DNA of 64,000 bases. It comes from Marinobacter sp. LA51. GTDB lineage: Bacteria > Pseudomonadota > Gammaproteobacteria > Pseudomonadales > Oleiphilaceae. The translations under genes were made by a program, and so were the position numbers. Positions 27,720 through 46,332 of the stretch are shown here, one piece after another (within the stretch, counting starts at the first letter, position 1; the number at the start of each line of letters is the position of its first letter). The notes beneath the pieces are model-generated. The model saw only the letters and a list, made by a program, of their open reading frames with translations. It was not told the DNA's origin and ran no database searches. The stretch spans positions 1,426,001-1,490,000 of the forward strand of contig NZ_AP028070.1 in the NCBI RefSeq assembly GCF_030297175.1, in the 5' to 3' direction.

Positions 27720-27992
27720 ATGAAGTTGCTCTGGACCACAATGATTGTGCTGATACTCCTGCTACAGGTGCGCCTGTGGGTCGGGGAGGGCAGCTTTGCG
27801 CAGGTCTGGGCGCTGGAAAAGTCTATTGCTGAGCAGCGTGAGGAGAACTCCGAGCTGGCGACCCGTAACGAGCGCCTCTACGCAGAGGTTCGTAACCTGC
27901 GTAATGAGCAGAGCGCCGTGGAGGAAAGGGCCAGGATGAACCTTGGTTTGATTCGCGAAGACGAAACCTTCTTTCTTGTCGTAGAGAATTGA
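27720..27992 (+). CDS. ftsB: Cell division protein FtsB
   Basis: 90 aa: a short cytoplasmic start, one membrane helix (about residues 4-21), then a periplasmic coiled coil (about 30-70) with regular Leu/Ala heptads and a conserved end, RARMNLGLIREDETFFLV. FtsB joins FtsL and FtsQ and helps activate septal peptidoglycan synthesis. Position between eno and ispD is the conserved gammaproteobacterial one. The gene is followed by a structured repeat element before ispD. Confidence 0.94.
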   Translation: MKLLWTTMIVLILLLQVRLWVGEGSFAQVWALEKSIAEQREENSELATRNERLYAEVRNLRNEQSAVEERARMNLGLIREDETFFLVVEN

Positions 27993-28010: not shown

Positions 28011-28120
28011 AGATCGACGAGGCTGCCTTTCCCGGGAACCGCTACGAGCACATCCATGTGCGCTTGGCTGTGGCCATCCATGGCCACAGACATTCCCGGA
28101 AAAGGCAGTCTCGCCGATCT
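28011..28120 (+). repeat. Structured palindromic element, copy 1
   Basis: 110 nt between ftsB and ispD. Outer arms 28011-28038 and 28093-28120 pair over 28 positions with two mismatches and one G-T pair. The 54-nt core (28039-28092) holds two smaller hairpins, GCAC/GTGC around ATCCAT and CTGTGGCC/GGCCACAG around ATCCAT, so the folded form is a three-way junction with two ATCCAT loops. The core matches 45570-45623 (opposite strand) at 46 of 54 positions, while the arms are unrelated. It may be a REP-like element; no transposase is nearby. Confidence 0.85.
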
Positions 28121-28142: not shown

Positions 28143-28844
28143 ATGACTGAATCCAACCTCTGGCTCATTGTTCCTGCTGCTGGGATTGGCCAGCGAATGC
28201 AGGCTGAATGCCCCAAGCAGTACCTTCGTATTGATTCCCGTTTTATTCTCGATATCACCCTTTCGCGTGTGCTGAATGCTGCCCGGTTTTCCGGCTGCAT
28301 GGTTCCCCTGAATCCGTCCGACCATTGGTGGCCGACTACCGAGTCCAGTCAGGATGAACGAATCCAGATTTGCACCGGCGGTACCGAGCGCGCGGATTCG
28401 GTGTTGGCGGCGCTGCGTGCGTTGGCTGGCCAGGCTGAGGACGATGACTGGGTTCTGGTGCACGATGCAGCACGGCCGTGCGTGCTTGGTGAGGATCTGA
28501 ACAAGCTGATCGACACCTTGTCCGGGCACCCGGTTGGCGGACTGTTGGCGGCGCCGGTTGCGGACACGCTGAAGAAGGCGGGCCCGGGTGAGAATCCGGA
28601 AGTGCAGGAAACCGTGGACCGACGCGCGCTGTGGCGGGCTCTGACACCGCAGATGTTTCGCTATTCCGCGCTGGTGGCTGCGCTTGAAAAAGCCCTGGAG
28701 GCTGGGTTACCGATCACGGATGAGTCCTCTGCCATGGAGTTTTCCGGTACCATGCCGGTACTGGTTGAAGGCCGGCCTGACAACATCAAGGTCACGGTTC
28801 CTGCGGATCTGGATCTTGCTGGCTTTATTCTCAGCCGTTTCTGA
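28143..28844 (+). CDS. ispD: 2-C-methyl-D-erythritol 4-phosphate cytidylyltransferase
   Basis: 233 aa from the ATG at 28143 (MTESNLWLIVPAAGIGQRM). The nucleotide-binding GIGQRMQAECPKQYL, GTERADSVLAAL, VHDAARPCV near residue 102 and TDESSAMEFSG near 195 are IspD signatures. It makes CDP-methylerythritol in the non-mevalonate isoprenoid pathway. No Shine-Dalgarno sequence precedes the start, which lies 22 nt after the palindromic element. A longer frame through the element (from 28080 or 28056) exists but has no family support. Confidence 0.95.
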   Translation: MTESNLWLIVPAAGIGQRMQAECPKQYLRIDSRFILDITLSRVLNAARFSGCMVPLNPSDHWWPTTESSQDERIQICTGGTERADSVLAALRALAGQAEDDDWVLVHDAARPCVLGEDLNKLIDTLSGHPVGGLLAAPVADTLKKAGPGENPEVQETVDRRALWRALTPQMFRYSALVAALEKALEAGLPITDESSAMEFSGTMPVLVEGRPDNIKVTVPADLDLAGFILSRF

Positions 28845-44263: not shown

Positions 44264-44403
44264 GGTGTGTCCGAACCTTTCTTCAGAGTAGGGGTTGTGT
44301 GGTCAGAAACGGGCACAGATGATACCTTCCGAGCAGATATTTTTCACCCGAATCCCCTGATTCCGTGCTTAAAATGAAGCATGAGCTTATTCCGGAGAAC
44401 CCG

Positions 44404-45504
44404 ATGACACAGATTTCTGAGCAGGCCCTGCAAACGGCGATTCGCGAATACCGCGATCCGTATCTTCAGAAGGACCTGTACGAACTGGATGCCGTAAAGG
44501 CGTTGAACACCGATGAGGCCGGCAAGGTCACGCTGATGGTCGAGCTGCCGTACCCGTCCAAAGGCATTGCTGGCGCACTGAAGCAGCTGGTGTCGGTAGC
44601 TCTGGAAAACGTGGACGGCGTTGAAAGCGCCGACGTTCACGTCGGCCAGAAGATCCACTCCTACAAAGTTCAGAAAGAACTGCCATCGGTGCCAGGTGTG
44701 AAGAACATCATTGCCGTTGCCTCTGGCAAGGGCGGCGTTGGCAAATCCACCACCGCCGTCAACCTGGCCCTGGCCCTGAAGGCCGAAGGCGCCCGCGTCG
44801 GCATCCTGGATGCCGACATCTACGGCCCGAGCATTGGCATGATGCTGGGCGTGCCCGAAGGCAAACGCCCGGACACCCGTGAAAACAAATACTTCGTGCC
44901 CATGGAAGCCCACGGCCTCCAGGCCAACTCCATGGCCTTCGTGGTTACCGATAAAACCCCCATGGTCTGGCGTGGCCCAATGGTCAGCGGCGCGGTCATG
45001 CAGCTTCTGCAGCAGACTCTATGGAACGAGCTCGACTACCTGATCGTCGACATGCCGCCGGGTACCGGCGACATCCAGCTCACCCTGGCGCAGAAAGTGC
45101 CGGTGACCGGCGCGGTGATCGTCACCACGCCCCAGGACATCGCGCTGCTAGACGGCAAGAAAGGCATCGAAATGTTCCGTAAAGTCGACATCCCGGTGCT
45201 GGGTGTGGTCGAGAATATGAGCGTGCACATCTGCAGCAACTGCGGCCATGAAGAGCCTTTATTCGGCCACGGCGGCGGCGAACGCATCGCCGACGAGTAC
45301 GACACTACGCTGCTGGGTCAGCTACCCCTGCACATGACTATCCGTGAACAGACCGACGGCGGCCAGCCCTCGGTGGTGGCCGAGCCGGATTCCGAAGTGG
45401 CACGCCGGTACCGGGATATTGCCCGCCGGGTAGGTGCCGAGCTCTCCACTCGCGAGCGTAACCTGACCGGTTCTATCTCCAGCGTGTCCGTTACCGAACA
45501 CTGA
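44404..45504 (+). CDS. apbC: Mrp/ApbC iron-sulfur cluster carrier ATPase
   Basis: 366 aa from the ATG at 44404 with GGAG upstream; a frame from 44365 lacks family similarity. A short MIP18-like domain (about 1-90) precedes the deviant Walker A VASGKGGVGKSTTAVN near residue 112. DADIYGPSIGMMLG and the cluster-binding pair in CSNCGHEE near 283 follow. It binds and hands over [4Fe-4S] clusters in the cytoplasm. The metG-apbC-dcd neighbourhood is conserved. A palindromic element separates it from dcd. Confidence 0.94.
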   Translation: MTQISEQALQTAIREYRDPYLQKDLYELDAVKALNTDEAGKVTLMVELPYPSKGIAGALKQLVSVALENVDGVESADVHVGQKIHSYKVQKELPSVPGVKNIIAVASGKGGVGKSTTAVNLALALKAEGARVGILDADIYGPSIGMMLGVPEGKRPDTRENKYFVPMEAHGLQANSMAFVVTDKTPMVWRGPMVSGAVMQLLQQTLWNELDYLIVDMPPGTGDIQLTLAQKVPVTGAVIVTTPQDIALLDGKKGIEMFRKVDIPVLGVVENMSVHICSNCGHEEPLFGHGGGERIADEYDTTLLGQLPLHMTIREQTDGGQPSVVAEPDSEVARRYRDIARRVGAELSTRERNLTGSISSVSVTEH

Positions 45505-45542
45505 TTAGTCTTATCTGCGGCGGGCTTATCGAGAGCTCTGTC

Positions 45543-45650
45543 GCGGGCGCAGTAACTACCGGCCAAAAATGTCGAAGGCCAAGGATGGCCGAAGACAAGC
45601 GCACATGGACGTGCTCGTAGCGGTTTTTGGCCGGTAGTTGCTGTGACCGC
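45543..45650 (-). repeat. Structured palindromic element, copy 2
   Basis: 108 nt between apbC and dcd. Outer arms 45543-45569 and 45624-45650 pair over 27 positions with one mismatch and two G-T pairs. The 54-nt core (45570-45623), read on the minus strand, matches the copy 1 core at 46 of 54 positions and is exactly the same length; its inner hairpins are GCAC/GTGC and GGCC/GGCC around GTCCAT and ATCCTT loops. The arms share no sequence with copy 1. The core is inverted relative to the flanking plus-strand genes, unlike copy 1. Confidence 0.85.
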
Positions 45651-45698
45651 AGCCCCCGATCTCGAAGCCACCGATGCCACCGATGCCACCCGCAAGAC

Positions 45699-45765: not shown

Positions 45766-46332
45766 ATGAGCATCAAATCCGATAAGTGGATTCGCAGAAT
45801 GTCCGAGCAGCAGGGCATGATCGAACCGTTCGAAAGCGGTCAGGTCCGTGAATCTGAAAAGGGCCGTGTTATCTCCTACGGCACCTCCAGTTACGGTTAC
45901 GACGTACGCTGCAGCAACGAATTCAAAATCTTCACCAACGTTCACTCCGCCACCGTCGACCCCAAAAACTTCGACGAAAACAGCTTCGTGAACTACACCG
46001 GTGACGTCTGCATCATTCCGCCGAATTCCTTCGCCCTGGCGCGCACCGTTGAGTACTTCCGCATCCCGCGCAGCGTACTCACCATCTGCCTTGGTAAATC
46101 CACCTACGCGCGTTGCGGCATCATCGTGAATGTCACACCGCTGGAGCCGGAGTGGGAAGGCCAGGTGACCCTGGAATTCTCCAACACCACCAACCTGCCG
46201 GCGAAAATCTACGCCAACGAAGGTGTGGCGCAGATGCTGTTCTTCGAATCCGACGAAGTTTGCGAAACCAGCTACAAAGACCGTGGCGGCAAATACCTGG
46301 GCCAAACCGGCGTGACCCTGCCCAGGACATGA
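45766..46332 (+). CDS. dcd: dCTP deaminase
   Basis: 188 aa from the ATG at 45766 ([12 protein letters not shown]), the family start; a frame from 45643 adds low-complexity residues. [16 protein letters not shown] near residue 45, [33 protein letters not shown] (in parts, near 110-140; catalytic Glu in LEPEWEG) and [12 protein letters not shown] match Dcd. It deaminates dCTP to dUTP for thymidylate synthesis. The DUF416 gene overlaps its stop by 4 nt. Confidence 0.97.

Follow-up and report, generated by a model that had tools for sequence, protein, structure and literature searches.

The window, by which we mean the whole 64,000-nucleotide stretch of DNA analysed here, holds two copies of a 110-nt unit in which a stem of 27-28 bp and variable sequence surrounds a conserved core that forms two small hairpins. 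The element stands at about fifty fixed places in its genome; copies were not seen to move, and their stems change yet keep pairing. The kinds of mispair found in those stems show that selection sees the strand with GGAT in its loops, regardless of the direction of the neighbouring genes. On balance, we think it probable that the element is an RNA of the TwoAYGGAY kind, carried on the GGAT strand, whose two loops are offered to a single CsrA dimer; that it is transcribed and bound is what we infer from these patterns.

Paired arms around a conserved core

Copy 1 occupies 28011..28120 (full-length match of our covariance model R1 at G000:C1:1454011-1454120), and its selected, GGA-bearing strand is the minus strand. 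Its outer arms, at 28011..28038 and 28093..28120, form Watson-Crick pairs at 25 of 28 positions and enclose a core of 54 nt (28039..28092). On the minus strand, CANGGANG lies in the loops of both hairpin A (28072..28085) and hairpin B (28049..28060), and the match to the doubled motif starts at 28082. Copy 2 occupies 45542..45651 (R1 match G000:C1:1471542-1471651) with the plus strand selected; comparison with copy 1 places its core at 45570..45623, its arms have 24 Watson-Crick pairs of 28, and its loops with CANGGANG are those of hairpin A (45577..45590) and hairpin B (45602..45613), with the doubled motif starting at 45580 on the plus strand.

Both copies lie between genes on the plus strand. 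Upstream of copy 1 is an ftsB-like gene (27720..27992; Pfam DivIC, E 5.5e-23), ftsB being the name that we take this DivIC-family gene to bear, and downstream is ispD (28143..28844; Pfam IspD, E 1.7e-61). Copy 2 follows a gene for an iron-transfer P-loop NTPase (44365..45504; Pfam PF10609, E 6.7e-101) and precedes a dCTP deaminase-like gene (45766..46332; Pfam DCD, E 2.5e-36). The GGA strand of copy 1 is antisense to ftsB and ispD, and that of copy 2 is sense to its neighbours.

The original prediction, made from the letters of the window, had located the two elements correctly (its second copy, at 45543-45650, differs from ours by one nucleotide at each end), and its cores of 54 nt with 46 identical positions are reproduced exactly. 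It was also right that the arms are almost perfectly complementary, although its counts of 2 and 1 mismatches become 3 and 4 non-Watson-Crick pairs of 28. The arms of copy 1 and copy 2 are identical at only 7/28 and 8/28 positions, and the prediction held that arms differ completely. This is so for the outer 10 nt, with 31% identity between copies against 30% in shuffles, and not for the inner 10 nt (58% against 28%); the arms of different copies are not wholly unrelated in sequence.

The pairing itself is not due to chance, because the same 28-54-28 geometry, applied across the window, gives 25 and 24 pairs at one place each and at most 18 anywhere else. On the plus strand the fold z-scores of copies 1 and 2 are -8.0 and -6.4; the minus strand gives -8.2 and -4.6. 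When 16 ungapped copies from the same genome are aligned, the arms pair almost completely as far as position 27 and no better than background from position 29 on, 93.8% of stem cells are paired, 27 of 28 stem pairs have changed on both sides, and the structure as a whole has a covariation score of 0.681, where shuffles reach 0.169. Both the proposed fold, a long stem bearing a pair of small hairpins, and the idea that structure is kept over sequence are borne out by these figures. An additional helix formed by the flanks outside the stem is unsupported: their mean duplex energy is -9.6, and permuted pairs give -9.9.

Fixed sites and changing stems

A search of the genome with the core DNA gave 23 rows, 19 of them clear and four weak. 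The covariance model R1, which was built from the 16 ungapped copies and reads the ATCC strand, finds 47 matches, 46 of them full length. The expectation of a larger family thus proved sound: the core occurs at many sites, and the arms of other copies pair well beyond background. Of 100 genomes sampled from the genus, 98 have the element, and in the order survey 24 of 95 genomes match, four of those 24 within the genus. Copy number varies strongly within the genus (with the best 38 candidates scored per genome, so that a count of 38 means at least 38): two genomes have none (G048 and G071), nine have 2-5, and many have at least 38. The double-hairpin pattern is found, among the matches listed, in Marinobacter, Luteimonas, Pseudoxanthomonas, Idiomarina, Saccharospirillum, Lachnospiraceae and others, and not all such matches in named records need be this element. 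One viral contig has a match (L423) that is without the long stem.

Placement between genes, as originally proposed, is the rule. With genes called by a simple method, none of the 46 full-length copies lies inside a gene; two reach into a predicted gene end, over 1 and 21 nt. Converging genes flank 17 copies, tandem genes 24 (13 with the GGA strand sense and 11 antisense) and diverging genes 5, and many copies are at most 50 nt away from a predicted gene end.

For 45 of the 46 copies, both flanks match a locus in the sister species (G043) that also holds a copy, from which we conclude that there has been no recent movement; conversely, seven of 54 loci in G043 are without a partner here. At ftsB-ispD, the core is present in all 30 best whole-length matches, our own included. 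Twenty further genomes with this gene pair comprise two with a long form, four with what look by eye like partial remnants and thirteen without visible arms, together with L100, in which the left arm and the outer part of the right arm are kept, as a deletion would leave them.

Here, two DNA-level explanations must be weighed. The original prediction likened the element to REP/BIME repeats, and a mobile DNA repeat of REP or MITE kind, with its hairpin recognised as single-stranded DNA, would account for dozens of dispersed copies, for flank motifs common to part of them and for inverted pairs. REP/BIME repeats are likewise palindromic, intergenic and numerous, and some form inverted pairs; GTAG adjoins the stem on the GGA strand of both copies. 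However, a REP palindrome measures 20-40 bp according to the accessible portion of PMC3733652, whereas this unit has 110 nt, and it is the middle that is conserved rather than the stem. A search of the genome for a Y1 transposase (PF01797) found none; 44 of 100 genus genomes likewise lack one, and its presence in the other 56 does not track the copy number of the element. We therefore reject a REP/RAYT origin, given the matched sites in G043 and the missing transposase. Collections of plasmids and phages, in which records very near to this genome may be absent, gave no match to the element either, and a mobile repeat in the wider sense seems to us quite improbable. The other suggestion, that a core inserts into, or is copied together with, pre-existing palindromes, would explain why copies have the core in common while their arms differ. 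Yet none of the 20 further ftsB-ispD sites holds an intact palindrome minus the core, the arms there change through paired substitutions, and stem length is constant at 27-28 bp; this idea is almost certainly wrong.

How the stems change can be followed in place. By simple parsimony on a tree of the ftsB-ispD flanks, one Watson-Crick pair was exchanged for another 102 times; 16 changes led to A.C, 3 to G.T and 9 to other mispairs (all bases read on the ATCC strand). A time course was drawn from comparisons among our genome, G043 and G054, with seven of our loci (members of close pairs, or of unclear pairing) omitted from divergence and change counts. Below a flank divergence of 0.1 (31 comparisons) there are 39 single changes to A.C, 9 to G.T and 13 others, and only 5 double changes; double changes number 169 at 0.1-0.2 (28 comparisons) and 269 above 0.2 (33 comparisons). 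Adjacent double changes exceed expectation (192 against 129, in 55 non-independent comparisons). In the analysis of pairs between our genome and G043, 10 of 45 pairs were skipped for gaps.

Sudden replacement of whole arms is weakened as a candidate: loci with replaced arms mostly have more diverged flanks, and single changes prevail at short divergence (two of 45 elements are missing from this analysis, and the pairs of L106, L135 and L136 are out of register). An insertion that copies one arm inverted is also unsupported, given that sites with part of an arm resemble deletions and that arms change in place.

The outer arms and the intergenic flanks diverge alike when both values are low (0.051 vs 0.052, 20 comparisons), and the arms lead later (0.355 vs 0.157 in 14 comparisons; 0.475 vs 0.303 in 26). 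Outer-arm divergence exceeds that of the flank in 42 of 63 comparisons, those with fewer than 20 intergenic bases being omitted. We would claim only that stems keep pace with the nearby spacer or outrun it while remaining paired, in comparisons that share branches and with flanks that may themselves be constrained. This pace is faster than we would expect from selection for pairing alone and counts against the CsrA-RNA reading.

The selected strand and its possible partners

A G.U pair in RNA is read as A.C when the opposite strand is aligned, and the two kinds of mispair can therefore tell the strands apart. Read on the ATCC strand, the 47 matches in our genome (1269 stem cells) contain 66 A.C, 7 G.T and 34 other mispairs, a bias of A.C over G.T with a binomial p of 4e-13. 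Across 117 distinct copies (144 model matches, of which 134 are distinct, less those on the reverse strand) the counts are 109 and 9. Most mispairs are therefore G.U wobbles on the GGAT strand, and the way in which copies were found leans the other way, since R1 reads the ATCC strand, where it would favour G.T. The original prediction had described the ATCC-loop strand; it is the opposite one that is selected.

The direction of neighbouring genes makes little difference. A.C to G.T is 20:3 where the GGA strand is antisense to both neighbours, 22:0 where it is sense to both, 18:3 between converging genes and 4:1 between diverging genes, all in our genome, and 24:2 in 26 distinct, mutually non-independent ftsB-ispD copies from other genomes. 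The single changes between close relatives, given above, lean the same way (39 to 9). A near absence of G.U had been considered as a sign of a DNA palindrome; this was rejected, in that the alignment was of the ATCC strand and the strand-resolved count reverses it. G.T is also the less harmful of the two mispairs in single-stranded DNA, and a strand-specific DNA hairpin is formally still an alternative to RNA. Counting G.U against A.C mispairs is a simple test that may separate RNA-level from other palindromes among dispersed repeats.

The loops point to a candidate partner. Both carry CANGGANG, which forms the centre of the optimal CsrA/RsmA site, in 45 of the 46 copies, with starts 23-25 nt apart, as they do in 36 of 37 partners in G043, 40 of 41 in G054 and 44 of 44 other copies; the form WCANGGANGW is present in 42 of our 46. 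Variation within the loops of the 16 aligned copies falls on the two N of CANGGANG, and GGA is sometimes preceded by a purine. Paired CANGGANG with 15-17 nt between them occur in the window in copies 1 and 2 only, on the predicted strands, where block shuffles lead one to expect 0.03. The element thus has what marks a CsrA/RsmA-binding RNA, namely CANGGANG in hairpin loops and two such sites, and one CsrA dimer is able to bridge two sites 23-25 nt apart. There is one csrA match in the genome. RsmE, a homologue of CsrA, makes optimal contacts with CANGGANG, as stated in the accessible portion of PMC5864733.

The family to which the element bears most resemblance is TwoAYGGAY (RF01731, clan CL00106), listed as a candidate RNA in 2010 (PMC2864571, in the part available), for which a link with CsrA has been proposed from motif matches (PMC4333381, likewise in part). 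In common are two hairpins with GGA in AYGGAY-type loops (the 45 copies above), AAG between them and CGG after, and a long, loose basal stem of weakly conserved sequence; TwoAYGGAY members from Idiomarina, Saccharospirillum and Lachnospiraceae also fold with long paired stems. In contrast, most copies here score under the Rfam gathering cut-off of 43 bits, and their high copy number in one genus, long form and divergent pairs are not described in the accessible portions of the papers found. The window has no match at Rfam's own thresholds. RF01731 is the top match of copy 1 in a small stretch (minus strand, 28127-28004; 34.1 bits, E 4e-4), and for copy 2 the family gives nothing at E <= 10. 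Of 20 loci scanned in our genome, five match RF01731 at E <= 1 and 15 do not; only L128 passes (43.4 bits), and it belongs to the same R1 family (73.5 bits). Long perfect stems also attract chance matches to microRNA families in such scans. The scores of copy 1 and L128 speak for the CsrA-RNA reading, and the chance matches and the loci that RF01731 misses, copy 2 among them, speak against it. When nine named loci were scanned at the gathering threshold, two from Lachnospiraceae passed (89.6 and 83.2 bits), and the Marinobacter loci L310, L381 and L379, two from Idiomarina and those from Saccharospirillum and Desulfuromonadales fell below it. RF01731 is found in at least 17 of 274 genomes of the class, often in several copies, with the best nine candidates per genome scored.

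If the CsrA-RNA reading is correct, RNA of the GGA strand would fold so that the stem forms and the two GGA loops stand out of the junction, and one CsrA/RsmA dimer, with its two RNA sites, could then grip both loops of a single copy. The roughly fifty copies would be distributed CsrA-holding sites, which might titrate CsrA or hold it on their host RNAs. A bolder version, which we offer only tentatively and doubt somewhat, is a distributed CsrA buffer of about fifty individually maintained RNAs, each holding one dimer, with perfect stems that drift freely, no more slowly than the spacer around them, and so avoid cross-pairing and recombination. The sRNAs CsrB/CsrC and RsmX/Y/Z, which also present CsrA/RsmA sites in GGA loops, have many GGA motifs each and are few per genome; the element here differs in having two sites per copy and 46 full-length copies. 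For Alteromonas, the available part of PMC5864184 gives three such sRNAs. Against the CsrA-RNA reading, 16 of the 46 copies have no gene reading into the GGA strand, and no promoter emerged for that strand (mean best score 5.7, against 5.5 on the other side). At the motif position, 22 of 91 flank-set copies (defined below) have TA[TAC]..C, compared with 3-11 in other segments, and there is no -35 signal.

Two other RNA-level explanations compete with CsrA binding. The structure might act at transcript 3' ends, by halting exonucleases, marking a processing site or terminating transcription, with no part for CsrA. The stem is very stable, converging genes flank 17 of the 46 copies and diverging genes only 5, and many are less than 50 nt from a gene end. 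Such a role, however, predicts selection on the sense strand, whereas the GGA strand is favoured where it is antisense too (the 20 to 3 above); there is no rule of a T-run, with TTTT present in the 60 nt beyond the element on the GGA strand of 12 of 91 copies, and the constant GGA loops are left unexplained. We consider it rather unlikely. The strand test would also fit a structured GGA-loop RNA with some other protein or RNA partner, as it points to RNA-type selection without naming the partner, but then the coincidence of the variable loop positions with the two N of CANGGANG stands against it, and we find this unlikely as well. The CsrA reading thus remains the one that we favour.

In the accessible portions of the open-access literature we found no experimental test of the TwoAYGGAY-CsrA link; the available text of PMC4333381, PMC2864571, PMC11661157 and PMC11701678, and likewise of PMC9788540 and PMC5864184, holds no description of a high-copy dispersed element of this kind. 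New here are a bacterial group with an abundant, putative TwoAYGGAY-like RNA, a strand-specific wobble test and fixed sites that can be deleted individually. If the bolder buffer version is true, CsrA control would be set by a repeat family too, beyond a few dedicated sRNA genes. The case makes testable both the function of TwoAYGGAY and whether a repeat family sets the free level of a global regulator.

Flanks, long forms and paired copies

The flanks were studied in a set of 91 copies, from which ftsB-ispD partners and copies near contig ends were left out. In the GGA orientation, 38 of the 91 have AAGTTCGA-like letters directly ahead of the stem, where shuffling gives a mean of 9.8, and 33 have CAGGCTAGG-like letters some 14 nt beyond it, where shuffling gives 4.0. 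These motifs suggest a once longer unit whose edges may have decayed.

A long form also exists, in which about 90 nt with several further hairpins are added inside hairpin B. In L090, L091, L149 and L151, GGG replaces GGA in the loop of hairpin B of this form, which counts against the CsrA reading. The long form is seen at ftsB-ispD in G038 and G018 (L090 and L091), and in our genome at 777305, 2797095 and 3646796.

Some copies form close pairs. In all 15 such pairs, from three genomes, the GGA strands point apart, across spacers of 11-615 nt; some pairs are orthologous. Those of our genome are at G000:C1 777375, 1575598 and 2479683, and the others are in G043 and G054. The RF01731 matches in G257 and G368 have the same divergent arrangement. 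In other gammaproteobacteria, the RF01731 matches L172 and L189-L192 (G108) and L193-L198 (G340) sit in near-identical repeats that stay alike for at least 100 nt on each side, which implies a repeated unit larger than the hairpins.
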